64,000 bases of DNA. Origin: Stentor roeselii. Its lineage: Eukaryota > Ciliophora > Heterotrichea > Heterotrichida > Stentoridae. The notes under the pieces were generated by a model that made no database searches, had not been told where the DNA came from, and was given only the letters and a program-made list of their open reading frames with translations. A program made the position numbers and the translations under genes. Position 1 is the stretch's first letter, and each line of letters opens with the position of its first letter. The DNA lies in the NCBI GenBank assembly GCA_006503475.1, contig RSEH01000221.1, positions 17,341 through 81,340 on the forward strand, written 5' to 3'. This document shows, piece by piece, positions 3,314 to 60,000 of this stretch.

Positions 3314-3527
3314 TGAATTTAATTAGGATTTGAATCAGGTTGAATGTAATGGCAGGAGGATTTTATAGGAGTTTGATGAAAATGATAAGTTTTGGATTAT
3401 TTTGAATGAAGAGAAGTGTATTTTAAGAAGATTGATTAAGTGGGAAGGTTACTTGGGAAGATGGAATAATTTAATAATTGAAATGATTATTGATAATAGT
3501 TTGAATTATTCTGAGGATTATAAAGTT

Positions 3528-6830: not shown

Positions 6831-6891
6831 TTATAACCAAAAAGCCAGAAAACTCTTAAATAACTAAATACCATTCAATTCCTAAAACTTA

Positions 6892-7644: not shown

Positions 7645-7652
7645 TTATATTA
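7645..7652. promoter_or_regulatory. 8-nt spacer between divergent ATGs
   Basis: The sequence between the two start codons is TTATATTA, giving CAT-TTATATTA-ATG. A similar A/T spacer separates the divergent pair at 12783. I infer a compact bidirectional start region. Confidence 0.5.
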
Positions 7653-8177: not shown

Positions 8178-8676
8178 GAGATGGGTAATTTAAAGGTTAG
8201 AGATCATGACTAGGATTAGTAATTAAGGATTCTTAATGAGGGAATTAGTGTCTTGACAACTTGAAAATAATTGAAAAGTTAAGTTGGGGTTTATGGAGCT
8301 GGCTTCGTGCAGGTTTTGTTTATCTTGATGATGGTATACTCGTTTTTTTATCCTCGAATTATAAAATACCGATTACAACCTTGATTTTTTGTATTTTATA
8401 GGACTTTATTTGATGTTTTTGTTGATAATCTTGGTTTTATCAAACCCACCAAAAAATATGCTAAACTTTTATTTGTTGAAATAGTTTATTTTTCTTGCCT
8501 ATCGTAATTTATTTCTTTTAAATTACTTCAAACCAGCCAGCTACACATTTAAGATCTACAGTTATTTTCGTTTGCCTTCTCTAATTAATCTCTCAAGATA
8601 TATCACTCTTCCCCCAATCTAATATTAAACTAACTTCAATATCAACCTAAAAATTCCAAACAAATCTAAACCCTAA
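8178..8676. other. Intergenic, convergent 3' flanks
   Basis: No gene seen. The left part is T/G-rich and the right part (about 8530-8670) C/A-rich, matching the mirrored 3' flank composition of two convergent genes. No tRNA or repeat recognised. Confidence 0.5.
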
Positions 8677-24279: not shown

Positions 24280-27153
24280 CTAATCTACTTTTTTCCTGAA
24301 TTTCACTGAGTTCAATGTAAGGATCAGGAAAACTGGAAGAGCCGTCAACAGCATCACGAGTAACAAGAAATAAAAAAGGTCTTGCCAGGAAGTTGATAGA
24401 TTTTTATGACTGAAATCAAGAAATTCATTTAAAATAGCAGGAAAAGACTTTTTTTTCTCAGGGAATTCGTAAGAAATTTCAAATGTTTTTAGCTCGAATG
24501 GATTTATTTTTGAGGTTGAATTTGATTTTAAAGGTTTTTGGATGTTTTCTGGGAAGTTTTTGTTGATTTCGAATTTTATGATGTTGCCCAGGGTGTTATG
24601 AGTTGTTGGAAGGATTTGTTGCCCGTTCATCAAGGTTTCGTTGAGGAGGGTGAGATGATCGAAAGTGAGAGGGACAGGATCTTCACAGATGTTGAGAACT
24701 GAGACAAACATCTTCTCTTCAACATAAAAAACACGAGATAAGTAAAGACACTCATTTTCAGATAATATCTTAAAGTCCATCTTCCATTTCCAGTCTTTTT
24801 CATCTTTTCCACTGTCAAGGTCGAGACTAGCTTCTAAAACTTCTGATTGATCTTTAAAAGTATCATCCTTTTCACCCTTCACATTTTTAGTACTAGAAAC
24901 AGCTAAACAAACAACAGGATTTTTAAAGTTCAAATAATTTTTCCATATTTTCGAATGATTCAACCTATCAAAAGTGACTAAAAATCTGTGAAAAGCAGCA
25001 GAAGGGTCTAATAAAGGAAGACCAAGACCTAAAACGTCATCATTTTCTGGGTTTCTGTGAATGTGAAGGTCCAGGAAAGAGTTGCCGAAGGCTACTCCGA
25101 TAGGAAACCTGGGAAAAACCTGCAAAAGTCCTTCAGAGTAGTTCTGCATAAAGGCTCCAACTACTGGGACACTGTTTTCTCCGTAGCAGTTGTAACGTGG
25201 TTCGTATTCTGACCTTTTTATCAAGTCTGCAGTGTTAAAAGTGAAGAAGTCCAGGTTGGGTCTTTGAAAACGTAAGAAAAGTTCATCTCCTGAAGGGCAG
25301 GTCAAGTTGAAAGTAAGTAAAAAGTGTTCTTGATCTAAGGAAATCAAAATGTTTTGAGTGAAATTGGAGTCTAAGTAAACGAACTCGCTTTGAATCAGGC
25401 AGAATTTTTGGCCTCTTAGGTAAAAATAGTCAAGATTTTCACCGATTTCTTCAAATGCTGCCTTTTTAGATTATACCATTGGTCTATACTCGTATGCGCC
25501 TCCTTCTAATGCATCTGTTCTTATCAGAGAAGAGGATAGTTTGAAGATGGAGTCTTTGAAATGGACTTCTTGAATTAGACCTCTTTGAAATAAGATGTTG
25601 AAATTTCCGAATGTTACTCTTTCGCTTGTTCCTTTTCTTCCGGACTTGCTGCAACCTTCGCATCTTTGGGTGAAGTGACGTAGGAAAATAGTTTTTACTT
25701 CGAATCCTTGGAAGTCGAGTAATAAAAATAGGAAATTTTTTGTTTTTGTGTCGAAGATGTCTCCAATTAGGAACTTACCTGAAGTGTCTGTGACCTGCAC
25801 AAACTCAGAATTCACAGGAATCTGAACAACATCTCTCTTGCGCCAAGCAAGTGAATTAAACAAGAAAAAAACCTTAAAAGGAACCTGAATTTCATTTTTT
25901 TCATTTTTCTCTATCTTAATCAAATTCAAATTCCTATTAAAGCTCTCAACAACCTTTTCCTGTTCAACCCGAAGTCTCATCATATAATCCTCAAAAGGTG
26001 CAGGTTGACAAGTGCCAGTGACCGCATCATGATGTAAACTCAAGCAACTATCAAAAGAATCAAAATCTCTATTCCCTAAAAACCCATTCAAAACCTCTGC
26101 AACCCTGACCAACGAATGAGTTTCTGAAATTTTCTGCTTTAAACTAGGTCTCGAGGCGTAAAATCCAGTCCAAGAAATCGGTCGAAATCGAATAGTTTCC
26201 GAGACATAAGGCAACAAATCCCCTTCAAACACATCAAAAGTTTCTCCAGACTGTAAAACCTGAGAAAAGTACTCCGAAGGTGTTGCAAATTTTATTTCAA
26301 CCTGATCAGAGAACTTTGCCAAGTCAAGAATAAACTGAAACTGCCTCTTAGTAGTTTCCAAGTCTTTAAAAAAAATATCATCTCCATACAAAATCATCAA
26401 GTTTTCAGTGCGATAAGCGAACTTTACCTGGTCCACATACCTCAAAAGTGCCTCATAACACCCAGGGAGATAATCCGAATAATTCCCTTCTGCCGGGTAA
26501 CACGATTCAAAGCTTCTAGTATCCATAAAACTCGGTAAATTATAATGACTATGCAGTAAATGTGTGAAAATTTCTTCACTTTGCGCGAAAGTTTCAGTCT
26601 TCCACCAGAATTCCAAATTCCCTTCTTTAAGCTGTTGCTAAATACTTCTTACCTTGTACCTTTCTTCGACTCTTCCCATTACCAAGTACTTGAATCCAAA
26701 CCTCTTCAACAAAGCAGGTGTGAGACTCGAGTGTCCGAAAGGATCCAATTGCCAAGCGACTTCAACATTTCTCACATCAAGTTCAACCTTCAAAAACGAG
26801 TGACCTGTCTCGATTTGTCTCGCGACTGACTCGAAATCAGTGAGGGCCTCGTCATGCATGACCCAGCCGCCCCCAGCGATTTCGATTTGTCCTGTTTTTA
26901 TCAGTTTTTTTAACCTTTCTTTATCCTCAGGGTGTTTTGAAAGCCAGTGACTGAGCCAGATGCTTTCACTCCAACAGAACTTGAACTGTTGATTGGACTC
27001 GAGAACTGAAAGGACTGAATGAAAAATAGGCTCGAAATGCTCGATTTGGTAAACTTCTAACTTGTCGATCCACCCTGCATCGATGTGACTGTGAGGCACG
27101 ATGAAGAACTTGATACCTGCTGAAAGAGGAAGAAAGATTAATGTTAATAACAT
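24280..27153 (-). CDS. GH38 alpha-mannosidase, membrane-anchored, KKxx tail
   Basis: Two 15-nt introns (26638-26652, 25462-25476) join three exons into 947 residues. A signal peptide (LLTLIFLPLSAG) is followed directly by the glycosidase domain: zinc ligands His23 and Asp25 in PHSHIDAGW, the nucleophile Asp137 in WQLDPFGHS, then LHHDAVTGT, a further metal-site motif. The middle and C-terminal beta domains continue to a transmembrane helix (LLLVMLLTALPVFLILTL) and a short tail ending KKVD, a dilysine KKxx-type ER retrieval signal. So the enzyme probably trims N-glycan mannose in the ER or early Golgi rather than the lysosome. The ATG follows the upstream stop with no spacing (TAAATG). Confidence 0.93.
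25462..25476 (-). other. 15-nt intron 2 of the alpha-mannosidase gene
   Basis: Minus-strand GTATAATCTAAAAAG, phase 0, A at position 10. Joins YRPM to AAFEEIGENL; retained, it gives TAA. Confidence 0.92.
26638..26652 (-). other. 15-nt intron 1 of the alpha-mannosidase gene
   Basis: Minus-strand GTAAGAAGTATTTAG, phase 0, A at position 10. Joins VEERYK to QQLKEGNLEFWW; retained, it ends the frame at TAG. Confidence 0.93.
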
Positions 27154-27786: not shown

Positions 27787-28680
27787 CTACTTATGATGAC
27801 TCGCATGTTGAAAGGTCCACTCATCGTTTTCGACTTTGTAAATAAACAAAATATCATCTTCACTGAAAAGGAAAATTTCAGATCTTAAATTAAAACCGTT
27901 ATGTGAAAATCGCAGAGTTCCTTGTAAAGGCAGGTCTGCACAATTTTCGAAGTTTTTTCCATCAAAAAGATGAACTTTTGTATTTTCTATTAAAGTCAAG
28001 CCCATCGGGTCATATCCTCCAATGATGAGAATAGTCGAGTTGGCTAAAGTAATGCAACTAGGAAGTGCGACTTGAAGAGGAGTTTTAATCATGCTTTCAA
28101 CCCAGCAGTCAGCAGGAATGTCATAAATAAGAAAGCTGTCGAAGAACCTGGGTGTTGAAGGGTAGTCCAAGAATCCTCCGATAAGGTAAAGAAAGGTGTG
28201 CACAATATAAGACCCGCTAAGAGCTACTTCGACTGGAAGTTTGGGAAGTTCTCCCCATTTCTTTAATTTAAGGTCGAAGTAATAGGGCGGCGCTGGCCGC
28301 CCTTCAGTGATCAAAGCGCCTGTTATGTAAATTCTGTCTTTAAACTTGTTCAACTGACCGAAACTCAAACTGTGAGGCGCTGGCGGCAGTGAAGTCATTT
28401 TCTTTTCATTCAAGTGAATGATCCAGGCCTCTGAAGTGTCTTGTCCCCCGATTAGGATGTAGAGACCTGGACCTAGCTTTGTAAACATGCAGCCTTTACG
28501 GAATGATGAACGAGAATCGAGTATTTCTTCTCGGAATCGCTTTTTCTCTGGGTCGAAACAGAGAAGACTGCTTGAGTTTAAACGCGGTTTGTAGTAGCAG
28601 TTGTCGTTTTGGGTTTTTATTTTTATTAGGCTGTCGTTTCGTGTTTTGTCACGGCTTGTTCCTCGGCAGGTGTTGCCCAT
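27787..28680 (-). CDS. Kelch-repeat protein with MGNTC N-terminus
   Basis: A 297-residue protein beginning MGNTCRG, a myristoylation/palmitoylation-type start. Kelch blades carry the GG-x-Trp pattern: LYILIGGQDTSEAWIIHL, RIYITGALI, YLIGGFLDYPSTPRFFDSFLIYD and ILIIGGYDPMG. Five or so blades are visible, enough for a small propeller or a partner-dependent one. No BTB or other domain is present. A membrane-tethered kelch adaptor is the likely form. The coding DNA contains a perfect GC-rich hairpin (28284-28303). Confidence 0.78.
   Translation of the reverse strand: MGNTCRGTSRDKTRNDSLIKIKTQNDNCYYKPRLNSSSLLCFDPEKKRFREEILDSRSSFRKGCMFTKLGPGLYILIGGQDTSEAWIIHLNEKKMTSLPPAPHSLSFGQLNKFKDRIYITGALITEGRPAPPYYFDLKLKKWGELPKLPVEVALSGSYIVHTFLYLIGGFLDYPSTPRFFDSFLIYDIPADCWVESMIKTPLQVALPSCITLANSTILIIGGYDPMGLTLIENTKVHLFDGKNFENCADLPLQGTLRFSHNGFNLRSEIFLFSEDDILFIYKVENDEWTFQHASHHK
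28284..28303. repeat. GC-rich perfect hairpin 8-4-8
   Basis: AGGGCGGC-GCTG-GCCGCCCT, arms perfectly complementary. It encodes part of EGRPAPP in the kelch gene on the minus strand. It is an unusually GC-rich island for this DNA. Confidence 0.75.
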
Positions 28681-44354: not shown

Positions 44355-47300
44355 ATGGATTACGAATCTCTGAAAAATTGGCTGTTGGCAGGATTGAGTG
44401 AAATTGAAAGTAAGGTTTCTGAAAACTGTAGACACACTTTCAAAGAATCGGCTGGTTACTACTGTACAATGGTTGAGAACCTGATTTTTGATGATGAAGA
44501 ACCGTCCAAACATCTGGACATCAGAATGATTAAAGATAAACAAGGATATTTCAATAAGTGTTTGTCGATTGAAAAAATTGTTTCGAATATTGTCCTGCCT
44601 ATCTACAAGAATAAGAATAGAATAGTCAATGCTATTACTTATCATAATTTTTTTATTCTGATTTCACCGACCGGTACAGGAAAAAGTAGCCAAGTCCCTC
44701 TATTCTTCCTCTGCTCTCCAATCTTCCAAGACACAAGCATTTTAATCATCGAATCCAACAAACTATCAGCAAAATCTCTATCAACCAAAGTAAAAGAAGA
44801 CCTTCTTCACATATCAGAAGTAAAAAGTTGCACAAACCCCAATAAATTCTCAAACACATCATCAAGTTCCTTAATTTACTTCGACGAGTTAACTTTTTTA
44901 TCAATATTACTAGAAGAAAGTCTTTCCGAAAATCCATTTCCATCAACCAAAGTGATAATCTTAGATGACATCCACGAATACAACTCAGCAATGGAAGTGA
45001 TTCTCTGCCTTCTTCTAAGAATCATCAAAACTAAAAGACCCGATTTAAGATTAACTTTTTTTTCAGCGAGTTTAAACGATGCAGAACTCGAGTCATATTT
45101 ATCAACTTTCTTCGAAGACGGTTTCAATCTGAGACCTGGAGTCTTTTGCGAGGACAAGTTACTTCTAAGGTCCGCGAAAATAAAAGTGACTCAAAAACTT
45201 TTCGACATTAAAGAAATCTTCGCAAATGAAGGAAATTATAACTTAAAAGAAACTTCCAGGGTGGTAGAAAGGGTGTTACTTGATGAAGACTCGAAAAAAA
45301 TAATGGTTTTCGTTGCGAGTGATGAAGAGACTTATGAACTGAAATCTCTTTTAAATAACCGAAATGATAACCTGACTATTTTCATCGCGAATAAAAGAAC
45401 TGAAAACATTTCATCGAAGTTATTTTTCCGAAAACTTCAGCCTTTTGAAAGGATGATAATTATCGCGACCAACTTCTTCGAAGGGGCGATAACGATTCCT
45501 GACGTCACTCATGTGATCGACACAGGTAAAGAAAAAACCCTTCAAATCAAGGGAATCGACGTATACGAGTCATCAAAAACATCGATTTCAATGTCTTCAG
45601 CCATTCAAAGAAGAGGCAGGACAGGGCGAGAATCAGTAGGAAGTTGCATTTTGCTTTACACAGAAGCAGAACAAAAAAACTTTCAACCTTTCAGGTCTCC
45701 CAAAATCGATTCAGAGGCCCTTGACTCGATTTTTCTCATCCTAACAAAGCACAGAGTAGACCCCTGGTCACTAGAGCTTCTTCATCCTCTTTCCCAGATG
45801 CAGTTCGAACTCACTTATCGAAAACTTTGGATGATGGAAGCTTTAGACGTGGTGAAACTTGAAGAGCCTCATCAAAGTCTTATGACTGAAATCGGAGAAC
45901 TTGCAATGCAACTGAAAATTGAAGTTTTTCAAGCAAGTATGATAATTCGAGGAAGGTTTTACTTTGAAAGTATTTTGATGGCTTGTGTGATTGAATCTAG
46001 TGAAAGTTTTATTGATTACCAGAGACAAAGTGATGAAAGTTACCTTTTTTTCAATCAAAACATCGACGATTTCACAATTCAACTGGTCCTTGCAAGACAC
46101 TTTTGCAGCATCAGATGTGAAAACTGTGCGAAACTCTTTCAAAACTTTTCCCCTAGAAGTCTTAATGACTACCTCCAGTTCATCAGCACCAGTTGTAAAA
46201 ATTGTGCAGGACTTCGAAACGCTTGGGGAAGCAGATTAAAAATTCGTGGACGACTCATCAAGTTAGCTTTAAAGGTCTGTAGACGTTTACTGAAAAAAAT
46301 TGACAGTCAAGGCAAAACAATTAAAACTCTTTTGAATGATGATCATTATGCAAAGGAGCAGAAGTTCATGAATAACACCCTGGACCTGGTCTTAGGGCGA
46401 GAACTTCTTCAGACTTATCTAAAACTTGCAGATTTATTGAAGATTTTAGTGTTAAAAGTCTTTTCTCATAACATCTGTGAAAATATTTCTAATAGTCAAG
46501 TCACTGCTTTTCGACATATGAGAAATGAGTTCATTGCTGTTCCTGGTGAGAACTCGTTTTACAAGGCAATTAAGGAAAAGGACTTTATTGTTTGCAAGTT
46601 TTTTGAAAAAAATAAAAACAGGTATCGAGTTAAGCTCGCTGTAGGGTTTTCTTACGAAGAAATAAAAAATAACGGCAGGGCAATTTTAAAAAATTTTCAA
46701 GTAAAAAAACATGACTTTCAATTATTTTCCTTTCCTAATGTCGGTGAAAAGTTCAGCAGGATGCTTAAAGTCCATGACGGGCGATTTTTAGATAAAGTTG
46801 AAGAAGAACTCTCGAAAAAACTTGAAAGTTTTTTAATGATCTACTCGAAAAGTGAGTCTTGTTTCAAGGTGCTGACTAAAAAACAGTCAGCTGAAGACTG
46901 TTCAAGAGTCATGAACTTTTGCATCAGAAAGCTTTTCAATCTGATTGAAATAAATGAAAAAGTTCATCATTCTGTTGGAGATAATTACTTGGCGATCTTA
47001 TCATTAGGCTACGAAATTAAAGAACTTGTAAGTCCTAAAAACGAAATTCGCTATAAAATCACAGGACTCGACACATCAGTACCCGCCGCGATGTACATCA
47101 AAGACATAAAAAAGACCTTCGCAGTAAAATACATCAGTATCGAAAAAGTGGGAAATCTTTACGAGGCCTTTCTTTACTTTTCTAATCACAAAGAAGCTGA
47201 AGAAGCCCAAAGACTTCTGAGGATCCTTCCCTTAAAAGGCTCAAAGGCCGTAAAGGAAAAAATCTTCGAAATGGAGCCGCTGACTGACGGAGCTTTTAAA

Positions 47301-48788
47301 GGAAAAAGTGCGAAAGTCGTGATTCCTTGTTACGTTGACTTTGAAGTAGCACGTAAAGTGTTAGGCTTCTTCGACCCTGCTGAGATCTCTTTAAAAAAAT
47401 GTACAAGTTACGAGTCAGTCATTTACGTTCACTTCAAATCACGAGAAGCTGCAGAGTACTTCATTCATAACTACCGCCCTACCTTTCAAAGTCACTTATC
47501 AGTTTCTTCTGCTTCAGTTAAAATTGTTGCTGATGGAATCTCTATTCCTAAAGAACTCTGCAAGGTCTCTGGACTTGAAAAGTACGTCAACCTCATCAGG
47601 AATACTTACAGGGCACAGGTTTATTGCAACCTTCGCAAAAAGAAGATTTTTTCACAGTTTGATGAACTTTCACTTGCTGCACAACAGAAAATATTTCAGT
47701 TGGTTAATAATGATACACTTGAAGTACCTCAGGTTGTTTGGAATATGATTGTCAATAGTTTTCATTTTATTGATGGGGAAGAGTTTAATTTTGAAGAGTT
47801 TCAGTTGCAGAAAGATGTGTCGTGTATTTATGTACAGAATATTAAAATGATTCAGATTTTTGGACTTCCTGAGGAAAGGGCGGAATTTTTAGAGTATTTG
47901 AAACATTTTATTTCGGATATTATGAATGATCTTGTTACTGTGGATTTTGAAATTGATAAAAAGAAGAAAAAGTTTGTAATCTTGAATGAGTTGTTCTCCA
48001 GATTCCCTAATATTGATTTTATGCTAGACGATCAAAACTCTCGAAAGTTCACCGCCTCCGGGATATCCAAAGACATCCAAAACTTATCTACCCTCTTCTA
48101 CGACGGAAAGTCTCCTTTAACTCAAATAGAAGAATGCGAAGTTTGCGGAAAAAACAAATCAAAAAATTCTCACAAACTCGGAATTTGCGGTCATTCAATT
48201 CACAAGTCCTGTTTCGTAGACCATTTAAAAAGCAACATGACAGCTTCATTGATTCCCATAACTTGTTTTTTATGTCAAAAATTAGTATGTTTTGAAGACC
48301 TGGTAATGATTTGCCCATATGAAATCATGAAGCTTATTGAAAAAATCGCCTTGTCGAAGTTCATCAAATGTTCAGGAAAGGACAGGTTCGAAGTCTGTGA
48401 AATTCCGAACTGTGGGTATATATATGAGAAAAATTCAATAGATATTGAAAAAATGACCAGGTATTGCCCTAAGTGCAACTTTAGTGTTTGTATCAAGTGC
48501 AAGTCTCCTGCGACTTTGAAGTATCACAGCATTGAATGCGAAAAAAGGTGGATTTTTAATAATGATAGACTTCTCACGTCTTGGCTTATGAATAATGCTT
48601 CTACTTGTCCTAAGTGTGGAATTTCTATTGAGAAGTCTGGAGGGTGTAATCATATGACTTGTGATATGTGTGGAGTGCATTATTGTTTCATTTGTTTGAA
48701 AGAGATAACTGAGAAACCAATTATTGAGCATTATAGTGTTCAGAATACCTTGTGTTATAGGAGGTACATTAACCCTGGCTCACAGTAA
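44355..48788 (+). CDS. DEAH-box helicase fused to an RBR (RING-IBR-RING) E3 ligase module
   Basis: One intronless frame of 1477 residues. The N-terminal half is a DEAH/RHA-type helicase: Walker A TGTGKSSQ (Lys110), motif II LDDIH (204-207) where DEAH is usual, motif III FFSASL, and motif VI QRRGRTGR. A HA2-like helical region follows. The middle (about 780-1240) has RRM- or KH-like folds. The C-terminus is an RBR: RING1 from Cys1261 (CEVCGKNKSKN...CGHSIHKSC), IBR (CGYIYEKN, CPKCNFSVCIKC) and RING2 (CPKCGISIEKSGGCNHMTC) with the predicted catalytic Cys1431. Plants have the same helicase-RBR order in DEAH11/DEAH12. It probably ubiquitinates RNA-bound proteins; the substrate is unknown. Confidence 0.93.
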   Translation: MDYESLKNWLLAGLSEIESKVSENCRHTFKESAGYYCTMVENLIFDDEEPSKHLDIRMIKDKQGYFNKCLSIEKIVSNIVLPIYKNKNRIVNAITYHNFFILISPTGTGKSSQVPLFFLCSPIFQDTSILIIESNKLSAKSLSTKVKEDLLHISEVKSCTNPNKFSNTSSSSLIYFDELTFLSILLEESLSENPFPSTKVIILDDIHEYNSAMEVILCLLLRIIKTKRPDLRLTFFSASLNDAELESYLSTFFEDGFNLRPGVFCEDKLLLRSAKIKVTQKLFDIKEIFANEGNYNLKETSRVVERVLLDEDSKKIMVFVASDEETYELKSLLNNRNDNLTIFIANKRTENISSKLFFRKLQPFERMIIIATNFFEGAITIPDVTHVIDTGKEKTLQIKGIDVYESSKTSISMSSAIQRRGRTGRESVGSCILLYTEAEQKNFQPFRSPKIDSEALDSIFLILTKHRVDPWSLELLHPLSQMQFELTYRKLWMMEALDVVKLEEPHQSLMTEIGELAMQLKIEVFQASMIIRGRFYFESILMACVIESSESFIDYQRQSDESYLFFNQNIDDFTIQLVLARHFCSIRCENCAKLFQNFSPRSLNDYLQFISTSCKNCAGLRNAWGSRLKIRGRLIKLALKVCRRLLKKIDSQGKTIKTLLNDDHYAKEQKFMNNTLDLVLGRELLQTYLKLADLLKILVLKVFSHNICENISNSQVTAFRHMRNEFIAVPGENSFYKAIKEKDFIVCKFFEKNKNRYRVKLAVGFSYEEIKNNGRAILKNFQVKKHDFQLFSFPNVGEKFSRMLKVHDGRFLDKVEEELSKKLESFLMIYSKSESCFKVLTKKQSAEDCSRVMNFCIRKLFNLIEINEKVHHSVGDNYLAILSLGYEIKELVSPKNEIRYKITGLDTSVPAAMYIKDIKKTFAVKYISIEKVGNLYEAFLYFSNHKEAEEAQRLLRILPLKGSKAVKEKIFEMEPLTDGAFKGKSAKVVIPCYVDFEVARKVLGFFDPAEISLKKCTSYESVIYVHFKSREAAEYFIHNYRPTFQSHLSVSSASVKIVADGISIPKELCKVSGLEKYVNLIRNTYRAQVYCNLRKKKIFSQFDELSLAAQQKIFQLVNNDTLEVPQVVWNMIVNSFHFIDGEEFNFEEFQLQKDVSCIYVQNIKMIQIFGLPEERAEFLEYLKHFISDIMNDLVTVDFEIDKKKKKFVILNELFSRFPNIDFMLDDQNSRKFTASGISKDIQNLSTLFYDGKSPLTQIEECEVCGKNKSKNSHKLGICGHSIHKSCFVDHLKSNMTASLIPITCFLCQKLVCFEDLVMICPYEIMKLIEKIALSKFIKCSGKDRFEVCEIPNCGYIYEKNSIDIEKMTRYCPKCNFSVCIKCKSPATLKYHSIECEKRWIFNNDRLLTSWLMNNASTCPKCGISIEKSGGCNHMTCDMCGVHYCFICLKEITEKPIIEHYSVQNTLCYRRYINPGSQ

Positions 48789-49892: not shown

Positions 49893-52800
49893 ATGGGAAA
49901 TAAACCTAGTACAGATGAACATGTTTCAGTGAAAAGTGAACCAAGTGAGGTTGAAAACTCTTCTAAATCTGAAGAAAGTAAAATACTTCAAAGCGAAAAT
50001 TCCAAAAACAGTAGAGAAATCAATAAATCTTCTAAAACCTTAACAATCGAAAATGATTTTCAAGAAATCTCTAAAAACTCAAACGAGTCCATCGAAAAAG
50101 GAATCCAATCCTATAATCAAATATATAAATTTGTAATAGACACTGCCCAAAACTATAAGATCGAAAAGTTTCTAATAGATGAACCTGAAGTTCAGAATCT
50201 CGAATCATCATTGCCTGAAAAGATGAAGTTTTTAGGTCTTTACGGCGATTCCACCCTGATAAAAACTTTCATAGAAGACTGTTTCGAAGAGCTACTGACT
50301 TCTTTCCCGTCATTAGAAGGAGTTTATTTATTCCTTAATGAAAATAACGAGAGTCAAGGAATACTTGCATATATCACAGAGGACAACTCACTTTACACAA
50401 GTAAGCCGATGAAATTAGGAAACAGAAGCATTTCAATTATAAGAATTTTATCAGACATATGCTTGAGAATAGTCGCCTGCATCCCTGATGAAATCTTGGA
50501 AAACTGGCAATATTCAGAAGACGGCAAACATAACCCATTCATTCCTAAAATACTCAGAGGAGCAATTGCTAAAATGGAAACTCGAGTAATTACAGAAAGT
50601 AGCTTAAAACGAATGAAAAATAAAAATTATGCTAAAAATAAATCAATTTTTCACCTTCCAATGGATAATTCAAAATTTTTGTTTTCTTTTGAGTTCAGCA
50701 ACTCGAGAGAAGAAATTTCTGGAAAACTTGAAGTTGAATGTGAAAATTTGCTTCAAGGTTTGAAGACTCTTGAGGAAAACTCGAAAGATGCAATACTGGG
50801 ATTTATTGACCAGTTTTTTATTGACTTAGGATTTATTGCTGTTGATAAGTCTAGAGCCAGAAAAGATTTAAATAGTGTTTTGGTTGGATATGTTCAGAAT
50901 GTTGACAAAAAAATTACACAAGTTTTGAAAGAAATTTTTGATGATTTTAAAGAGGAAAAGTTTGTTTTTAAAGAGTCTTTTAAGATATTTAAGTCTCGGT
51001 ATAGAGTTTTACTGTGTAAGGATAGTGATTTTGATTTTTTTGAGGACTTGAATAAAATTTCGAATGATTTTTCTAGTCAAGGTTTGATTCAATCGATCAT
51101 TGAAGATAAATTTAACAGATTTTTCAAACCAAAAGATCCGAAAAGTATTAAAACTTTTGTTAAAAATACTTTGGATATTTTAGTTGAAAAGTGCAATAGT
51201 TTTAAAATGCCAGATCATAATCAAATCACTGAAGAGTTAATAAAGATTGCTGGAAAACAGAAAAATAAATCTGAAATATTGTCAAATTTTGCTAAATATC
51301 TACCAAAATCTCTAAATTTAAAATTCCCAGAAATTCTCTTAAAAAAAGTTGAAAATTCGTTAAAATCATTTGAAAATTTTATCAAAACCGCAGACAAATC
51401 AGTAACCGAAAAAATTATCACAAGGATTGAAGAAGATCTTCCAGTAAATCAAGTTTTATTCAGTTTAATGAGATCTAGAATTGAATTTGAAATCCATGGG
51501 ACTAAAATCGAATCTTCAACAAAAAGTCTAAAGAAACTCTTCCAATGTATCATATCAGTGCGAGCCCCTATCGTGAAACAAGTAGTTTTTTTTTCCAATC
51601 AATTTTGCTACGCCTTCATCAAAAATATTCAAGAATCAAAAACTCACGTAATAAGATTCAACCCATTTCTAAAATCAAAAGAAAACTATGAAATACTTGA
51701 AGAAATCGAAGACAGTAACGTTTTTGTAGCCTGGGGTTCGAATGTGAATAAATTTGTTATTTTTTTGAATACGAAGAAGACTGCATATCATGGCTCTTTA
51801 TTTCAAAATAAATTTATTCAATTGGATATTGAGCTGAAAATTTATGGAAAAAAAATTAATGTTGTTTTGAGTTCTCATTATATTCATAAAACTCGAAAAC
51901 TTTACATTTTGAATGAAAATGGGATTTTGTATAAAAAGGAACTTTCTAATGATTTTATTGGTATTGAACAAGTTACTACTTTTAATGCTCAAACTGGAGA
52001 AAAATTCACTTTTTCTTCAAGATGTGGAGAACAGTTCAGAGATTTTGATATCACACCAGATGAGCAAGTTTTCGTTATGCAGACTGAAAATTTCATTGAA
52101 TGCTTCAACAAAGATCTTAACTTTCTATATGATGTTAAGTTAAAAAGTTCATTTGAGTCATTTAAAACTCTTCATATTGATAACCAATACATCTTACTGA
52201 TAAAATCCAGAAAATTTAAATTGTTTCAATTGAACACTCCTCAAAGAATTTCTGTGATTAGCACAAACAAGATAATAAAAGAAATAATTGAAGGAAATCC
52301 AATCTTAGACCTTCATCAACTTGGAATAATAAAATTCGGTCCAATCTTACAAGAAACTCTTATCACAAAAGGAAGAAGGTCTCTAGGATACTACCTGGAA
52401 GCCGAAGATGATTTAAGAGTCTCTTCATATCTTTCCCACCTTTCAAAAGTTTCCGATTCTTTCGACATTTTAAACTACGTAAACCCTTCAAAAGCCTTCA
52501 AACACTTAAAAAAAACCAAAAAATCCTCATTTTCACTCACAGTCCTCACAAGGCTTCCTCTTCACCTGGCAGTGATCGAGCTAGGAAATCTGAAACCTCT
52601 TCAAAATGGTGAAAATAATTTCGACAAATTAATAAAAAACATAAAAAAACAATCTTTTCTAGAAAGTCTCACAAAATACATAAAATTCACATGTTTTGAA
52701 AAAGTTTTAGAAAAAATTGATGATTTACTCGTTTTTTCCATCATTGGTCGACAGTCTTCTGGAAAAAGTTATCTTCTTAATCGAATTGTTGGAACTCGAT

Positions 52801-53975
52801 TTGATGTGGCTGCTGAAAGATGCACTGAAGGAATTTGGATGGGAATCGGAAAAATCAATGAAAAGTTTGTAGTTGTTTTTGATTGTGAAGGAATGTTTAC
52901 TGTTGAAAGATCGACTCAGGAAGAAATTAAACTTTGTCTGTTTCTTTCGAGCTTGTCTGATTTGGTTATATTGAACTCTGACTTGAGCTCTGGAAAACAA
53001 ATTATTACCTTGTTTAATCAATTTGCTTCTGGAGTTGATAGGATTAGAGGTGATAAACTTTTTGGAGGGATACTTGATATTACTTTTAGGGATATTCCAG
53101 ATGGACAAGGAGAAGGGGCTTCAACTGAATTCGAAAAATTTCTAAATACCCTGGTTTCAGCCCAGCAACAAGAAACACTAATGAAACTATTTAACCAAAA
53201 TTTTTACAATTCTCAATATCACAACTTCGAAAACGAAATATTTGAGCAAGAAATAAGTAAATCAAGAGAAAAATATTCTAAAATATCCCAAAAATGGGGA
53301 AATGGCCAAACTCTTTGCCAATACATTAAAATTGTACTTGCTCAGATATATTCAGATCTAAAAACAAGCTCTAATGAAGAGCTTTTAAAACTAAAAATAG
53401 ACAAAGTAAAAAAAATACTTGAAAAATCACTGAGTGACATAGTAAAAGCTGAAAAAATATTAGGAAAAAAGTGTGTTAATGTAAATTTTGAATTTGGCAG
53501 GAAGACCTGTTCCTTTGACATTCCGATCTCGAGTTATAAAAAGAACCCTGAGGACCCACTCTCTCATTTCAAAACATTTTTTCAAACAGAAGAAACTAAA
53601 AGATTTGAAATGTTTTTACACAATGAATGGTTTTTTCAAATGCAAGAAAACGTCAAAAAATTCACAGAAAACCGGAAATCTCTTTATTTAGAAAACTTGA
53701 AAAAAGATTTAATTGAAATAGGTGTTGAATCAAGGACCATGGAACAAGAATGTTTAATATTCGAGCACTTACTAGAAATTCCTTCATTTTGTTTAAAGAA
53801 ATGTAAAATTTGCTATTTTATGTGTACCCTTCCATCAGATCATCTAACAGAATGCTCATGCTGCACGAACCATTGTTGCAAGGACAGCTGCGATTTCTGT
53901 GAATCTTTTTCATACTGTTCAAAAGAAGCAGGACACATTGGAAAGCATCTCTGTGAAACAGTGAATCACACTTAG
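49893..53975 (+). CDS. Very large GBP/VLIG-like GTPase, short paralog
   Basis: An intronless 1360-residue protein. It begins MGNKPST, a myristoylation-type start, followed by about 75 disordered Ser/Glu/Lys residues. Residues 80-225 are a conserved domain (FLGLYGDSTLIK, GNRSISIIRILSD). A helical region follows, then a strand-rich region at about 560-820 (VAWGSNVNKFVIFLN, YHGSLFQNKFI) that could be a propeller. The GB1/RHD3-type G domain starts near 945: P-loop GRQSSGKSYLLNRIVG (952-967), DCEGMF (997) and RD in FRDIPDGQGEG (1066), as in guanylate-binding proteins. A helical stalk leads to a short Cys-rich end (CKICYFMC, CSCCTNHCC), where it stops. Its convergent paralog continues for several hundred residues. 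GBP-class proteins are GTP-driven self-assembling proteins, often in host defence. Confidence 0.9.
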   Translation: MGNKPSTDEHVSVKSEPSEVENSSKSEESKILQSENSKNSREINKSSKTLTIENDFQEISKNSNESIEKGIQSYNQIYKFVIDTAQNYKIEKFLIDEPEVQNLESSLPEKMKFLGLYGDSTLIKTFIEDCFEELLTSFPSLEGVYLFLNENNESQGILAYITEDNSLYTSKPMKLGNRSISIIRILSDICLRIVACIPDEILENWQYSEDGKHNPFIPKILRGAIAKMETRVITESSLKRMKNKNYAKNKSIFHLPMDNSKFLFSFEFSNSREEISGKLEVECENLLQGLKTLEENSKDAILGFIDQFFIDLGFIAVDKSRARKDLNSVLVGYVQNVDKKITQVLKEIFDDFKEEKFVFKESFKIFKSRYRVLLCKDSDFDFFEDLNKISNDFSSQGLIQSIIEDKFNRFFKPKDPKSIKTFVKNTLDILVEKCNSFKMPDHNQITEELIKIAGKQKNKSEILSNFAKYLPKSLNLKFPEILLKKVENSLKSFENFIKTADKSVTEKIITRIEEDLPVNQVLFSLMRSRIEFEIHGTKIESSTKSLKKLFQCIISVRAPIVKQVVFFSNQFCYAFIKNIQESKTHVIRFNPFLKSKENYEILEEIEDSNVFVAWGSNVNKFVIFLNTKKTAYHGSLFQNKFIQLDIELKIYGKKINVVLSSHYIHKTRKLYILNENGILYKKELSNDFIGIEQVTTFNAQTGEKFTFSSRCGEQFRDFDITPDEQVFVMQTENFIECFNKDLNFLYDVKLKSSFESFKTLHIDNQYILLIKSRKFKLFQLNTPQRISVISTNKIIKEIIEGNPILDLHQLGIIKFGPILQETLITKGRRSLGYYLEAEDDLRVSSYLSHLSKVSDSFDILNYVNPSKAFKHLKKTKKSSFSLTVLTRLPLHLAVIELGNLKPLQNGENNFDKLIKNIKKQSFLESLTKYIKFTCFEKVLEKIDDLLVFSIIGRQSSGKSYLLNRIVGTRFDVAAERCTEGIWMGIGKINEKFVVVFDCEGMFTVERSTQEEIKLCLFLSSLSDLVILNSDLSSGKQIITLFNQFASGVDRIRGDKLFGGILDITFRDIPDGQGEGASTEFEKFLNTLVSAQQQETLMKLFNQNFYNSQYHNFENEIFEQEISKSREKYSKISQKWGNGQTLCQYIKIVLAQIYSDLKTSSNEELLKLKIDKVKKILEKSLSDIVKAEKILGKKCVNVNFEFGRKTCSFDIPISSYKKNPEDPLSHFKTFFQTEETKRFEMFLHNEWFFQMQENVKKFTENRKSLYLENLKKDLIEIGVESRTMEQECLIFEHLLEIPSFCLKKCKICYFMCTLPSDHLTECSCCTNHCCKDSCDFCESFSYCSKEAGHIGKHLCETVNHT

Positions 53976-54048
53976 CAAGTCTTAATCCTTAACTAAAATT
54001 CTCAAAATATTTTTTAAAGATTTTATCAAATCATTAAATTTATCTAAT

Positions 54049-57000
54049 CTATTTCTTTGATTTCGGTGCATAAACGAAATTTGTTTCAATCGTCGCGATC
54101 ACAGTATTCGTGACACTCATCTCGAAGCTATCAATATTATCAAGATTCATGACGATAATTTCATTATTATACTCTCTCTGAAACAAATCAACAGTAGCAT
54201 TAAGAAGATTCCCAAGTTTTACAAAGATAAACTGGGTTTGATTTGCTTTCATGTCGCTTAAAAGCCGAGGCCATTTAAACCCACAAGGGCATCCATTGGG
54301 ATGAGTAGTTCCATTTCCGAATTCAATGCCATGAGGGCAGTCATCAGCCACTAAAATATAAAGCCTTCCACTTCCCATTCTATATCTAAGCTGATTCGCA
54401 TTTGCAATTCCATCAATCAAGGCCTCTCCCCACATCCCCCCGCCTCCACTGACAGTCATACTTGCGATAAACTGAGAGGCATTCATGGGATCTCCATCAT
54501 AAAGGTTCAAACTCTTCGGAAATATAGAAACTGGATTGTTACTCGGAAAATTTCCATGGTCAGGGTAATGATCAGTATACCCAACAATAGCAAACTTGTT
54601 ACATTCACTTCCCCATTTATTCAAAAGATTCAAAATAACCTTCTGGACTTTTGGAAAGCAAGAACCCATGCTACCAGTGCAGTCAATTACGAAAACAATG
54701 TCATAATTTCCTGAACCTTTATGAACACAAGGAAACTTATGATCTGCATAAGATTCAGAATTCGAATGAAAAAGATTCCCTTCACAAAAAACAACTTCTC
54801 CAGCAGTTTGATGAGAAGGATGACCACACATAAAACTACATTTTGCGAAAATAGCTTGAGCTGCAGGGTTTTTACTTTCAACTGGAGGGATCCAGCCATG
54901 TTTTTTCCAGAAAGTCTCACAACTGACCAGGTCATAATCGACTTTTAATTTACTTCCTGAGTCGAAATTTACTGAAGAATGAACTGCGAAGCCCTTGTCA
55001 GACTTTTCACAACATTTCAGTCCTCCTTGGCAGGGGATGGGGTGCTTGTGTCCTCGGCCTTTCTTTAAACAGTACTGGTCGCATATCTCTGGAATCGCTG
55101 AATCACCGGCAACGTATTGAACGGCTGTCTTGGTTTTATGAGAGTCGAAGACTTCTCCTTGGAAGACTGAGTCGGTTGATATGTATATCGCGTTGTCTTT
55201 GTTACGGTGTGAGTTTGAAAGATGGAAACCTCCGTGGTCTGACTCGAGTTCGCAGAAACATGCACAGTCAGGACATCTGTAAGCGCATATGTGCTTTGGA
55301 ACTGCGCAGATGTGCATGGATTCTTCGTGGGACAGGGTGAATGGCTCGATTTTTATATTGCAGGGCTTTTTTTCTGTTATTAGGTTGACGTATGGGTAAG
55401 TGAACTCGTTGTAACGATTTTTGTAGACTTTTGTGACGAATTCGGTACGCAATGAACATACTCCTGTACTTTCACAGATACCTGGACAGAGATGATCATT
55501 TCCACAAATATGCATTTTAATCATTTTATCCCACAAGCTAACCCCGTCCAAAGAATCATCATGAAAATGTTCTAAACTAGAGCAATTTTTCCCATCATTG
55601 AATACACACTTAAAAGGACACTTTTTAGTAGAGCAACAATGAACCGAATGTTCAACAACCCGATCTTTTTCACACAACTGTCCACACAACGAGAACATTT
55701 TGCAATTTTTTCCACAAGGATGAGAACCTGAGCATTTGCAATCCCCTTTATGAAAAGGTTCAAAAGTGCATTGATTTTTACAATTAGAAACTTGACATAA
55801 TTTCGTGCATTTATGTTCTTCTATTCCACAGATATGTCTTCCAGAATGCCCACCTTGAAGACTACATCTTTGAGTATTTTCACAAATCGAACATGAAAAC
55901 TTGCAGATATGGTCAGTGTTACAAGAACATTTAGAAGAATGTCCTGAAATAATAATACAAACTAATTCACATTTATTGCATTTTCTCATACAAAGTGAGT
56001 CGTGAGTCAGTTTCTGTTCAAGATAAAGAATCTCTCTTTCTATTTCTGGTAAAAATTCTTCCTTGGTAGGAAGGTTTGACTTTATGAAGTTTATTATGAG
56101 GGTATTTCGAGAATTGAAGAATTTTAACACCTGGGTGTTAAACTGCTCGAACCAAATGTTGTGATGAAAATTTTGAATGTTTTCTGATTTTTTTGATTTG
56201 AATGACTCGAAAAAGAAGTTTAAAGGATTTGAAGTGTCGCGATAGTATTCTCTTATTTTTACTTTGAATTTGAAATTTTGGTCTTCAACTTTAAACTTTC
56301 CAGTAAAACTATCATCTCCTAAATGTTTTTTCGCCTTTTCAGTGCTTTTTAAGATACTTTCTACTTTTTTCTTGATATTTTGAAGTTTAGTTTTAAACAT
56401 TCCTTCATCGACATTAGTGCTGATATCAGTGAATATCTGTGCAAGTACAGTTTTCATCATCATGATCAAAACTTTGCCATTTTCCCATTTTCTTTCTATT
56501 TCTTGAAAGTAACGTTTTCTTGAGTAGTCAATTTCATGGTTAAAAAGACTATTTTCGAAGTTGTGATATTGAGAGTTGTAAAACCCGCCTTTGAATAGTT
56601 TTGAAAGACTTTCCTTTCTTCCAGATTCAATTAAATTAGTCAGAAATCTTTCAAACTCATAAGCGGCTCCTTCTCCTTGACCATCAGGAATGTCTCTATA
56701 AGTGATATCAAGAGTAGCCTGAAACAATTTCTCACCTCGAAGCCTGTCGACTCCTGAAGCGAACTGGTCAAATAAAGTGATGATTTGCTTACCAGAGCTT
56801 AAGTCTGAGTTTAAAATGACCAGATCTGATAGACTTGATAAAAAAAGACATAATTTTATTTCTTCTTGTGCTGACCTTTCCACTGTAAACATCCCTTCGC
56901 AGTCAAAAACAACGATGAAGGTGTTTTTTATTTGGCCTATACCCATCCAGATACCTTCTGTGCATCTTTCTGCTGCTACGTCGAAACGAGTGCCGACTAT

Positions 57001-60000
57001 TCTATTCAAAAGGTAACTCTTACCTGAAGATTGACGACCGATTATTGAAACAACCATCAAATCGTTGATTTTTTCTAAGATTTGCTCGTAACTGGAAAAT
57101 TTTATGTATTTCGTTAAGTTGTCCAAAAATGACTCTTTTTTTATCTTTTTTGTAAAACTGTCGAAGTTGTTTTCACCATTTTGAAGAGGTATCAAATTTC
57201 CACTTTGGATTGATGCGACGTGTAAAGGGATTCTGGTGCTCATTGCAAAGAGAAGTTCTGATTTTGAGGTTCTGCTTATGCTTTTAAAAGCTTTAGAAGG
57301 ACGGACATATCCAATTTTTTTGAAAGACTCTTTGATAGTACCAAGATATTTAAAATAAGCAGAAACTCTTTCATCATCTTCATCAATTATATAGTATCCT
57401 AAAGCCCTTTCTCCCTGAATACTTTGAGTCTCTTCATTCAAAGGTCCGAACTTAACAATTCCAAGTTGGTGAATATCTAGAATAGGGTTTCCTTCAATGA
57501 TTTTCTGAGTTTCTAAGCCCCTTTCAACACAAGTGACTTTTTTAGGAACATAAATTTTAAAGCAAACAGGTTTTTTCGTGCTGTTAATGATCATAAAATA
57601 ATTATTCTCAACCATAATAGTCTTCAAAGAGCAAAAACCAGATGGAAGTTCAATTTCATGAGTGATACTCAAATTCTTATCATAACACTCAATAGAATTC
57701 TCAGTCCTTAAAATCAAAATAGTCTCATCCGCAGTTATTTCCATATCACAGAATTTTTTTCCAGATTTCGAAGAAAATTCTCGAGTGACAGCAGTTTTAG
57801 GGTCAGTTTGTTTAGCTAGAGTTAATTTATTATCATCATATTGAAGTTCTTTAAAAAATAACTGTCCAGAATCACTAATCAAAAAAAGTTTCTTACTTTT
57901 TTGCAGGTAAGAACTTGTAACGACTTTTTTGACTTTTCCATAAATTTCAAGTTCCATTTCGAGTTTAATGAATTTATTTTGGTAGAGTGATCCATGATAG
58001 CTTTTTTTTTTGTTATTCAAGAAAATGATGTATTTGTTTGAATTTGAACCCCATGCGACTTGAACATCAGCATCGTCAATATCATTGATTTTTTCATAGT
58101 CTTCTTTCGTAAAGACTTTCGGCTTTAAACGAATCACGTGAGTTAAATGATTATCAGGGTTTGACACGAAAACAAAAATAATGTCTCTTGAAAAAGAAAT
58201 CACTTGCTTTACTTGAAGCTGTTTAAACTCGAAGTAAAAGGAAAGAAGGTCTTTTTTATCTGAAATGTTTAGTTTTGCGACTCTTTCTTGAAACCTTTCT
58301 TGAACTGTGATACTTGAGATGGAGATTGTTAGGACTTCTCCTTGTGAACTTTGAACCATTTCTTTCATAATGTCTTTAAAATGATAACCAAGAGTTGATT
58401 TTTGAATTTCAAGGTTTTCTTTAAAATTCATTATTTTCGGTGCGATTAAGTTTTCTATTTCTTCTGAACTTTTATTTGAAGTGAATTCGTAAAGGCTTTC
58501 TGTGACGATTTTTAAATAATTTTCTAATTCCAAGTTTTTTTCAAGAAAATTTTCCAATTTAGAGAGTCTTTTACTTAATGACTCTGAAGTAATAAACCCT
58601 GAGATTGAGGTCTTGACATTAAATTTCGACTTAAGCACTTCCACAAGTGATTTCATAAAGTTAGGTAATGATTTCGACTTATGAGCAGTTTTATACTCTT
58701 CGTACATTTGTTGTACAACCTCCTCAAATTGTTTCTTTGATGAAAAATGACTGAGACATTTCTGTAGTACATCAAAAGTTTCTTGATCTCCTTTGCATTT
58801 AAGTAGATTTAAAGCATCAGATTTAAAATTTTTTTCAGAGTCTTTTGATCTGAAGTCAGCAATTTTTTTTAAAGTAATTAAAATGTCTTTATAAAAATCA
58901 TCATATAAATTTTTTTTTGTGTTCATATATTGCTTCATCACATTTTTCAATATCTCTGAAAATTTTGACTTGTTAATTCCAGGAAAGCCAAATTGTTTGA
59001 AAAATTTATCTAAATAAGTAGTAAGAGCAAATATTGAATCTGTATTAAAATCTTTCAGGTGATTATACAGCTTTTCCATTTGTTTTTCAAGTTTCATTTC
59101 TTCAGATCTTGACATTTTTTCGAACTTGAATGAAAAAATGAGTTCTGAAGAGTCAGGAGGTAAGTAAGAGTCTTGTGTAAGAACTTTTTTATTTAAAATA
59201 TCGATTATTTCTTTTTTGCTTTCTTGGATGACAAGGGTTTTAAGTGAGGCTGAAATAGGTTGATGGATTTTTGGAATGAAAGGGTTGATTTTCCCTGATT
59301 CTTCAAAGAACCAGTTATTTAGGTTGTCTTGAGATATGCAAGTGATTACTTTAAAGCAGAGGTCAGTCAAGATTCTTACTATTGTGATGCTTCGGTTACC
59401 TGTTTTCATTGGTTTTTGTTGGAAGAGGAGATGGTCTTGAGAGATGTATGCGAGAATTCCTTGCTTTTTTGATAGGCTGTAGAAGAGATATACTCCCTCA
59501 TCGGTTGGCAGATCATAGATTTCATCATCAAATGCTTTTGAGATGAAATGTAGAATAACTTCACTGTCACCGTAGAGACCTAAAAGCTTTAGTTTTGATG
59601 GAATCAGCGTTTTAAGGGTTGTTATTGCAGATTTTTCCATTAGGAATTTCTGGATTTTGAAACTTTGAGCTACATCAGTGATCCACTTATAAACATGAAC
59701 TAAGACCAGGTCTTCAGTAATTTTTTTATAGTCTGTTTCTTTTAGCGGTTCTGGTTCTGGGTCTGAAGCTTCTTTTTCTTGCTTGAGAATGTCAGCTTCT
59801 TTAAATAACTCTTCAAATAGCTCTTCCTTGTCATCATCTAAGTAGTGATAAGATTCTTTTTCTAGTGGATTATTATTTTTATTTTCCTTTTGTCTTGATT
59901 TTTCAACTGGCTTTACTTTAATCTCAACAGAGGGAAAATTCTGACCCTTATCCTCATCCCCATCATCTATATCTTGGCTTTTTGCTTGCACAGCTCCCAT
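54049..60000 (-). CDS. Very large GBP/VLIG-like GTPase with Cys-rich array and vWA domain
   Basis: An intronless 1983-residue paralog of the gene ending at 53975. It begins MGAVQAKSQD. The shared N-terminal domain (FLGLYGDSEV-like, GNRSITIVRILTD) and strand-rich region (VAWGSNSNKYIIFLN, YHGSLYQNKFI) precede the G domain: P-loop GRQSSGKS from 988, DCEGMF, YRDIPDGQGEG. From about 1338 to 1750 comes a long Cys/His array (CNKCELVC, HICKFSCSIC, GGHSGRHIC, HKGDCKCSGSHPCGKNC), NFX1/RING-like in spacing. A von Willebrand A domain closes the protein (about 1766-1960) with an intact MIDAS start DCTGS (Asp near 1772) and SGGGGMWGEALIDGI. The vWA and Cys array suggest ligand or pathogen-surface recognition coupled to GTPase assembly; this is inference. 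Confidence 0.92.
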   Translation of the reverse strand: MGAVQAKSQDIDDGDEDKGQNFPSVEIKVKPVEKSRQKENKNNNPLEKESYHYLDDDKEELFEELFKEADILKQEKEASDPEPEPLKETDYKKITEDLVLVHVYKWITDVAQSFKIQKFLMEKSAITTLKTLIPSKLKLLGLYGDSEVILHFISKAFDDEIYDLPTDEGVYLFYSLSKKQGILAYISQDHLLFQQKPMKTGNRSITIVRILTDLCFKVITCISQDNLNNWFFEESGKINPFIPKIHQPISASLKTLVIQESKKEIIDILNKKVLTQDSYLPPDSSELIFSFKFEKMSRSEEMKLEKQMEKLYNHLKDFNTDSIFALTTYLDKFFKQFGFPGINKSKFSEILKNVMKQYMNTKKNLYDDFYKDILITLKKIADFRSKDSEKNFKSDALNLLKCKGDQETFDVLQKCLSHFSSKKQFEEVVQQMYEEYKTAHKSKSLPNFMKSLVEVLKSKFNVKTSISGFITSESLSKRLSKLENFLEKNLELENYLKIVTESLYEFTSNKSSEEIENLIAPKIMNFKENLEIQKSTLGYHFKDIMKEMVQSSQGEVLTISISSITVQERFQERVAKLNISDKKDLLSFYFEFKQLQVKQVISFSRDIIFVFVSNPDNHLTHVIRLKPKVFTKEDYEKINDIDDADVQVAWGSNSNKYIIFLNNKKKSYHGSLYQNKFIKLEMELEIYGKVKKVVTSSYLQKSKKLFLISDSGQLFFKELQYDDNKLTLAKQTDPKTAVTREFSSKSGKKFCDMEITADETILILRTENSIECYDKNLSITHEIELPSGFCSLKTIMVENNYFMIINSTKKPVCFKIYVPKKVTCVERGLETQKIIEGNPILDIHQLGIVKFGPLNEETQSIQGERALGYYIIDEDDERVSAYFKYLGTIKESFKKIGYVRPSKAFKSISRTSKSELLFAMSTRIPLHVASIQSGNLIPLQNGENNFDSFTKKIKKESFLDNLTKYIKFSSYEQILEKINDLMVVSIIGRQSSGKSYLLNRIVGTRFDVAAERCTEGIWMGIGQIKNTFIVVFDCEGMFTVERSAQEEIKLCLFLSSLSDLVILNSDLSSGKQIITLFDQFASGVDRLRGEKLFQATLDITYRDIPDGQGEGAAYEFERFLTNLIESGRKESLSKLFKGGFYNSQYHNFENSLFNHEIDYSRKRYFQEIERKWENGKVLIMMMKTVLAQIFTDISTNVDEGMFKTKLQNIKKKVESILKSTEKAKKHLGDDSFTGKFKVEDQNFKFKVKIREYYRDTSNPLNFFFESFKSKKSENIQNFHHNIWFEQFNTQVLKFFNSRNTLIINFIKSNLPTKEEFLPEIEREILYLEQKLTHDSLCMRKCNKCELVCIIISGHSSKCSCNTDHICKFSCSICENTQRCSLQGGHSGRHICGIEEHKCTKLCQVSNCKNQCTFEPFHKGDCKCSGSHPCGKNCKMFSLCGQLCEKDRVVEHSVHCCSTKKCPFKCVFNDGKNCSSLEHFHDDSLDGVSLWDKMIKMHICGNDHLCPGICESTGVCSLRTEFVTKVYKNRYNEFTYPYVNLITEKKPCNIKIEPFTLSHEESMHICAVPKHICAYRCPDCACFCELESDHGGFHLSNSHRNKDNAIYISTDSVFQGEVFDSHKTKTAVQYVAGDSAIPEICDQYCLKKGRGHKHPIPCQGGLKCCEKSDKGFAVHSSVNFDSGSKLKVDYDLVSCETFWKKHGWIPPVESKNPAAQAIFAKCSFMCGHPSHQTAGEVVFCEGNLFHSNSESYADHKFPCVHKGSGNYDIVFVIDCTGSMGSCFPKVQKVILNLLNKWGSECNKFAIVGYTDHYPDHGNFPSNNPVSIFPKSLNLYDGDPMNASQFIASMTVSGGGGMWGEALIDGIANANQLRYRMGSGRLYILVADDCPHGIEFGNGTTHPNGCPCGFKWPRLLSDMKANQTQFIFVKLGNLLNATVDLFQREYNNEIIVMNLDNIDSFEMSVTNTVIATIETNFVYAPKSKK

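Follow-up and report, generated by a model that had tools for sequence, protein, structure and literature searches.

Predicted giant GB1/RHD3-class GTPases encoded by a convergent gene pair in Stentor roeselii, one with a Cys/His array and a vWA domain

We identified two genes for giant, GBP-class GTPases that lie tail to tail in the window (the whole 64,000-nucleotide stretch that was analysed). Gene A (49893..53975, plus strand) encodes 1360 aa and stops inside a Cys/His array. Gene B (54049..60000, minus strand) encodes 1983 aa, with the array followed by a vWA domain. The two stop codons are separated by a spacer of 73 nt (53976..54048). The convergent layout given in the initial annotation of this DNA is exact, both open reading frames are intact, and both proteins have the Met-Gly start that had been claimed for them. 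We read A and B as giant GB1/RHD3 GTPases that would use GTP to assemble themselves into scaffolds or coats, with a tail that binds in a metal-dependent way, and we put the probability of this reading at about 0.5. Defence and work on the cell's own membranes are both possible as sub-cases of the scaffold reading, and we weigh them about equally.

The G domain region lies at 52632..53174 (plus strand) in A and at 56611..57153 (minus strand, residues 950-1130) in B. The previously reported motifs GRQSSGKS, DCEGMF and RD lie at residues 952, 997 and 1066 of A and at 988, 1033 and 1102 of B, and G1 (GxxxxGKS), G3 (DxxG) and RD (G4) are intact in A, B and two relatives from the same genome, C14 and C237. 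Profile searches upheld the GB1/RHD3 class. The G domain cut out of B scored 37.8 bits against the GBP family (Pfam PF02263, cut-off 21.1); its best Pfam match was URGCP_GTPase, at 51 bits (E 1.2e-13), which is below the cut-off of 55 and spans profile positions 181-286 of 396. When searched at full length, A and B matched URGCP_GTPase (E 2.3e-11 and 7.5e-12) and RHD3_GTPase (E 2.4e-9 and 2.3e-8), in each case below the Pfam cut-off, and whole-protein scores against URGCP_GTPase were 36-45 bits. URGCP_GTPase was the best Pfam match for whole A, B and C237, and GBP was the best for C14; the GBP family scored 39 bits with whole C14 and 34.5 bits with whole C237, both over the cut-off, and was not listed for whole A and B. 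The URGCP, GBP and RHD3 profiles each matched all four members given to the search (the fifth, C280, was left out). Against the PDB, a four-member profile of the G domain retrieved SEY1 (E 3.9e-9), GBP5 (E 1.8e-8) and then GBP2 and GBP1, with Der-type bacterial GTPases matching more weakly; NCBIfam returned weak Era/Der-type and other sub-threshold matches and nothing else. On these profile matches we assign the G domain to the wider GB1/RHD3 class; its score does not reach the curated threshold for VLIG/URGCP proper.

We searched the organism's own genome (44.4 Mb in 522 contigs) for relatives and scored 24 of 42 candidates, so that all counts are lower bounds. The search gave at least 15 matches. 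The count of paralogs proposed as a check in the initial annotation came to at least three further large relatives: C237 (2128 aa), which is a complete family member; C280 (1809 aa, minus strand, 2892-8318), in which the P-loop is deleted and the RD motif lost while the array and the MIDAS are retained; and C14, whose open reading frame begins after the N-terminal domain and which apparently lacks it, as no continuation of that domain was seen by eye in three frames of the 2 kb upstream. Since P-loop and RD are gone, we regard C280 as a pseudo-GTPase; Pfam gave it no GTPase family match. A stop-ridden relic on C350 (16334-17485) matches B 597-1001 with 27% identity and 24 stops. A separate protein on C120 carries GKQSLGKS and DMEG near its start, a P-loop that looks GBP-like by eye, and has no Pfam match at E 0.01; C159 gave a weak match. 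Outside this genome, no relative was confirmed in 51 (four-member full-length query) and 139 (array query) pattern-matched stretches of viral contigs, or in 25 (five-member full-length query) and 27 (array query) such stretches of prokaryote genomes.

Conventional GBPs exist as separate proteins in the same genome, at least five by the Pfam GBP model (on C49, C223, C374, C488 and C280 at 17 kb; that of C374 has 186 aa only). Guanylate-binding proteins (PF02263/PF02841) share the G1, G3 and RD motifs with A and B, and the G domain exceeds their cut-off. However, A and B have neither GBP_C nor CaaX and carry a 900-residue N-terminal extension, to which B adds the Cys/His-vWA tail; the GBP_C helical domain (PF02841) was not found by Pfam in A, B, C14, C237 or C280.

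The tail of B begins with the Cys/His array (residues 1330-1760, 54721..56013, minus strand), which contains 47 Cys and 30 His. The large array that had been described in B is well supported: in the four tail-bearing members (B, C14, C237 and C280), 64 of 77 Cys/His columns are invariant (40 Cys and 24 His) versus 43 of 339 other columns (Fisher p 3e-33, gapped columns excluded). From these conserved ligand-type residues, the array is predicted to be of metal-binding type. No Pfam model matched it in any of the four members, and PDB sequences gave nothing better than E 0.3. An NFX1-like knuckle regular expression occurs 3, 3, 3, 2 and 1 times in B, C14, C237, C280 and A (shuffle means 0.015-0.022), numbers that were reached by 0, 0, 0, 2 and 34 of 2000 shuffles. 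We withhold the NFX1 label because the expression was composed after viewing the sequence and Pfam shows nothing.

The array is followed by the vWA region (residues 1755-1983, 54052..54738, minus strand), whose MIDAS had been called intact. We agree: PF00092 matches B at 24.6 bits (cut-off 23.8), and the MIDAS motif DCTGSM, at residue 1773 of B, is present in all four tail-bearing members. With the same model C280 scores above the cut-off (33.8) and C237 below it (20.1); C14 matches VWA_2 and VWA_4 only, both below their cut-offs. A vWA profile found the collagen VI and integrin vWAs in the PDB. The own-genome search returned one other vWA protein (E 4e-8), encoded at 766-2766 of C13, a vWA alpha-kinase whose alpha-kinase domain scores 154 bits in Pfam. 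Its vWA aligns with that of B at 25% identity, with the TGSM, GGG, HG and P.G.P.G positions in common. The vWA of B is thus related to one of a VwkA-type kinase, but none of the five family members (A, B, C14, C237 and C280) gave a Pfam match to an alpha-kinase domain. The vWA query also confirmed one of 28 pattern-matched stretches, on a viral-collection contig that encodes (5947-6759) a free-standing 270-aa vWA of similar pattern (ATGSM / SGGG / PPHG / GCPCG). Because of the C13 relative and this free-standing domain, the vWA is not a peculiar receptor, nor is its subtype limited to the giant GTPase family.

The initial annotation placed the array on the long protein, which is correct as far as B goes; A also holds its first part, with 13 Cys in the last 65 residues, and for that reason looks like a C-terminally shortened copy. 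Read in this way, A is the mirror case of C280, with the G domain retained and the tail gone. Alternatively, A could be a decaying, non-functional fragment whose tail was removed by an inverted duplication, leaving B as the one working gene. A stop inside the array would be expected of such a fragment, as would the longer branch of A (0.81 versus 0.33) in a five-sequence tree of B 591-1396. Yet its reading frame is open across 1360 codons, and in the G core (B 983-1072) A and B have 92% of residues in common despite differences at 24 of 32 four-fold sites, which speaks for long constraint; we consider decay of A quite improbable. The same comparison dates the pair. As 24 of 32 four-fold sites differ, the A-B pair must be old and its G core free of recent conversion, and the 92% identity of that core indicates that A remained under selection long after the split. 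The G core is under purifying selection.

An inverted duplication had been proposed from the tail-to-tail layout. We find it plausible if ancient, though not proven by the sequences. A recent inverted duplication or gene conversion is ruled out for the G core by the four-fold differences, and the grouping of A with B is weak (UFBoot 73 for A+B versus the rest in the one five-sequence tree, where C14+C237 received 97). Elsewhere the share of differing four-fold sites is lowest in B 836-950 (9 of 26) and highest in B 95-260 (17 of 22). The former segment immediately precedes the G domain and also shows 26 of 65 synonymous codons that differ; a recent exchange there is ruled out by a residue identity of only 56.5%, despite the fewer synonymous differences.

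Ahead of the G domain, A and B share the N-terminal region of about 900 residues that had been noted as unrecognised, and it stayed so: the two align over 889 columns with 40% identity, and all Pfam matches are sub-threshold (the best, DUF445, scores 13.9 bits where the cut-off is 33.8). Three parts are visible, namely a conserved domain (B 100-261, 59218..59703, minus strand; A 73-235, 50109..50597, plus strand; 47% identity over 164 columns), a helical segment, and a beta-rich segment (B 591-838, 57487..58230, minus strand; A 51558..52301, plus strand). The beta-rich region was delimited by alignment and a low-confidence model. Both AlphaFold models are of low confidence (mean pLDDT 32.5 and 39.7). 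A beta-propeller was considered for B 591-838, by eye and from strands in a low-confidence model; it had no PDB match up to E 10, and we do not claim it.

By eye, B 100-261 resembles a G domain without a P-loop, and the N-terminal domain of C280 reads GRRSDVKS where the active G domain reads GRQSSGKS, possibly a ghost P-loop. We ran 20 comparisons of N-terminal domains with G domains, at 500 shuffles each, together with 12 control comparisons. The N-terminal domain of C280 gave p 0.026, 0.002, 0.034 and 0.018 against the active G domains of A, B, C14 and C237, and p 0.16 against its own G domain. None of the other 16 comparisons fell below 0.05, including all 15 with the N-terminal domains of A, B and C237, and neither did the 12 controls (lowest 0.064). 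Three hhalign runs of the N-terminal domain against the G domain gave no similarity, a four-member profile of the domain had no PDB match up to E 10, and the C280 domain alone retrieved no GTPase from the PDB, its best match being a glucosyltransferase (E 0.014). The N-terminal domain is possibly a degenerate G domain, a lead that we keep on weak evidence. Its interest lies in the comparison with human GVIN1, for which two large GTPase domains are described (PMC11974893).

For the scaffold reading, we propose that GTP-bound G domains dimerise and in this way drive assembly, as expected from their class alone; that an N-terminal myristoyl group in A, and probably in B, sets the assembly on the cytosolic face of a membrane; and that the Cys/His array and the MIDAS vWA hold a conserved partner in a metal-dependent manner. 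A (without a tail) and C280 (with a tail and a dead G domain) would then serve as co-assembling regulatory partners; mixed assemblies are suggested by the existence of the motor-only A and the sensor-only C280. Dimerisation, assembly, myristoylation, metal binding and partner binding of A and B are all points that we infer. A precedent for such a coat is human GVIN1, a giant GTPase that coats bacteria in the cytosol (PMC11974893). Counting against the scaffold are the missing GBP_C and CaaX, Met-Gly starts that do not extend to C237 and C280, and the weak Era/Der matches.

It is the Met-Gly starts, and these alone, that suggest membrane anchoring of A and B. The PROSITE-like N-myristoylation pattern fits A and B only among the family; C237 and C280 do not start with Met-Gly, and the start of C14 is uncertain. 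A CaaX box is absent from all five members. No clear transmembrane segment was seen by a crude test, the mean Kyte-Doolittle value over 19 residues exceeding 1.6 in 0-2 windows per protein; the hydrophobic windows shown all fall within the N-terminal domain, in a stretch rich in charged residues.

Housekeeping membrane remodelling (for example, at the contractile vacuole, the phagosome or the secretory pathway), in which the vWA would serve as it does in VwkA, is possible, if on balance somewhat unlikely. SEY1, which tops the PDB matches of the G-domain profile, is an ER fusion GTPase, and the G core and the tail are strongly conserved. The sole other vWA protein from the own-genome search is, as noted, a vWA alpha-kinase; Dictyostelium VwkA localises to the contractile vacuole and Golgi, going by the title of the primary paper (cited in PMC1420674 and PMC7072818). 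Although SEY1, RHD3 and atlastin belong to the same GTPase class, A and B have no clear transmembrane hairpin of the SEY1/atlastin kind, the RHD3 profile stays below its cut-off, and URGCP outscores RHD3 in Pfam. Shortened and pseudo-GTPase members would also be unexpected for a core fusion enzyme.

Recognition or defence was the use suggested by the initial annotation, which saw in B a GBP/VLIG-like GTPase with a recognition end. The G domain, the metal-binding-type array and the MIDAS vWA stood up; the pattern of conservation counts against a diversifying recognition end. The helical region (B 261-590) is the least conserved part in four of five pairs (18% identity for B-C14, 15% for B-C237), the exception being B-C280, where the beta-rich region is lower still. 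Array and vWA are 51-61% identical among B, C14 and C237, and 37% and 46% identical, respectively, for B-C280. The G core is the most conserved region in four of five pairs; in B-C280 the vWA takes that place, because the G domain of C280 is dead. Conservation of the tail with divergence of the helical region speaks against the C-terminal end as a fast-evolving recognition surface.

The positions of the genes may point the other way. Fast-changing families often sit near chromosome ends, and four large-family loci lie 2597, 1519, 19 and 4000 nt from a contig end (single p 0.036, 0.015, 0.001 and 0.11; combined p 6e-5 if positions are random, in a test picked after the positions were seen and leaving out the C350 relic, 7 kb from an end). 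The C13 alpha-kinase, the C120 protein and the weak C159 match are likewise near contig ends, and the five conventional GBPs are at least 17 kb from them. One end of C237, 1.5 kb from a large-family locus, carries the telomere repeat (TGTTAGGG)n, and eight other contig ends inspected showed no such repeat; since only this end bears telomere repeats, a subtelomeric location is suggested and no more.

Under cell-autonomous defence, B would act in the cytosol like the GBPs and GVIN1, sensing or coating bacteria, viruses or damaged phagosomes. This reading has evidence on both sides. The class likeness of the G domain to GBP and URGCP/VLIG, the presence of conventional GBPs in the genome and the end-proximal loci favour it, as does human GVIN1, described as a giant GTPase that forms a coatomer on cytosolic bacteria (PMC11974893). 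Against it are the conserved tail, the common kind of vWA, and the fact that contig ends need not equal chromosome ends. A search of a defence library gave mad8 as its sole match, across the G domain (E 2.9e-4 for A, 0.026 for B). GBP-class proteins such as SEY1 and atlastin are also employed in housekeeping work. Taken together, we regard defence as somewhat unlikely.

The closest known counterparts of the scaffold reading are the URGCP/VLIG/GVIN proteins (Pfam PF25683; human GVIN1), with which A and B share giant size and their top Pfam match, although the G domain stays under the 55-bit cut-off with partial profile coverage. GVIN1 is described as having two large GTPase domains with a helical linker between them, besides an N-terminal and a C-terminal domain, and in the passages considered no Cys/His array or vWA is mentioned (PMC11974893). 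According to the same preprint, of 2025, GVIN proteins had until then lacked any reported function. More speculatively, and improbably in our view, giant GTPase coats could form an old family of eukaryotes that is shared in outline with animal GVIN and has a degenerate N-terminal and an active G domain in tandem; the zinc array and vWA sensor would be an addition of this lineage, and motor-only (A), sensor-only (C280) and full (B, C237) members would join in one mixed defence coat. We found no paper that combines a giant GBP-class GTPase, a Cys/His array and a vWA in the open-licence literature, as far as its text was available; similar proteins may well be present, unnamed, in protein databases. 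With its shared G-domain class, added array and vWA, and naturally occurring motor-only and sensor-only members, this ciliate family could be used to study the assembly of giant GTPases and to ask whether such structures are older than interferon immunity. In Stentor coeruleus, RNAi has been reported to be effective (PMC4019465).

Of 44 open reading frames of at least 120 aa listed in the window, four that overlap larger frames on the opposite strand were left out. The remaining 40 end in TAG (20), TAA (16) and TGA (4); as all three stops are used, the standard code is suggested, though some ends may be introns. For Stentor coeruleus, the standard code is described together with 15-16 nt introns (PMC9505925); Blepharisma is described with CCCTAACA telomeres and 15-16 bp introns, but reads UGA as tryptophan (PMC9942806). 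A hidden 15-nt intron in A was rejected; the single GTA-N9-TAG string falls in the conserved VAWGS stretch. At 25471-27153 (minus strand), in a gene that we take to be alpha-mannosidase-like, a 15-nt GTAAGAAGTATTTAG insert with the appearance of a tiny intron interrupts the frame. Together with the stop usage and the C237 telomere repeat, this insert suggests a Stentor-like heterotrich. Adjoining the GTPase pair, 44355-48788 (plus strand) encodes a 1477-aa protein in which a helicase (Helicase_C, E 2.8e-10, above cut-off; DEAD, E 3.1e-5, just below) is joined to an IBR-type end (IBR_1, E 3.3e-10; RING only weak). Proteins encoded at 21863-22879 (plus strand) and 27787-28680 (minus strand) start with MGCC and MGNTC, starts that are typical of myristoylated and palmitoylated proteins.
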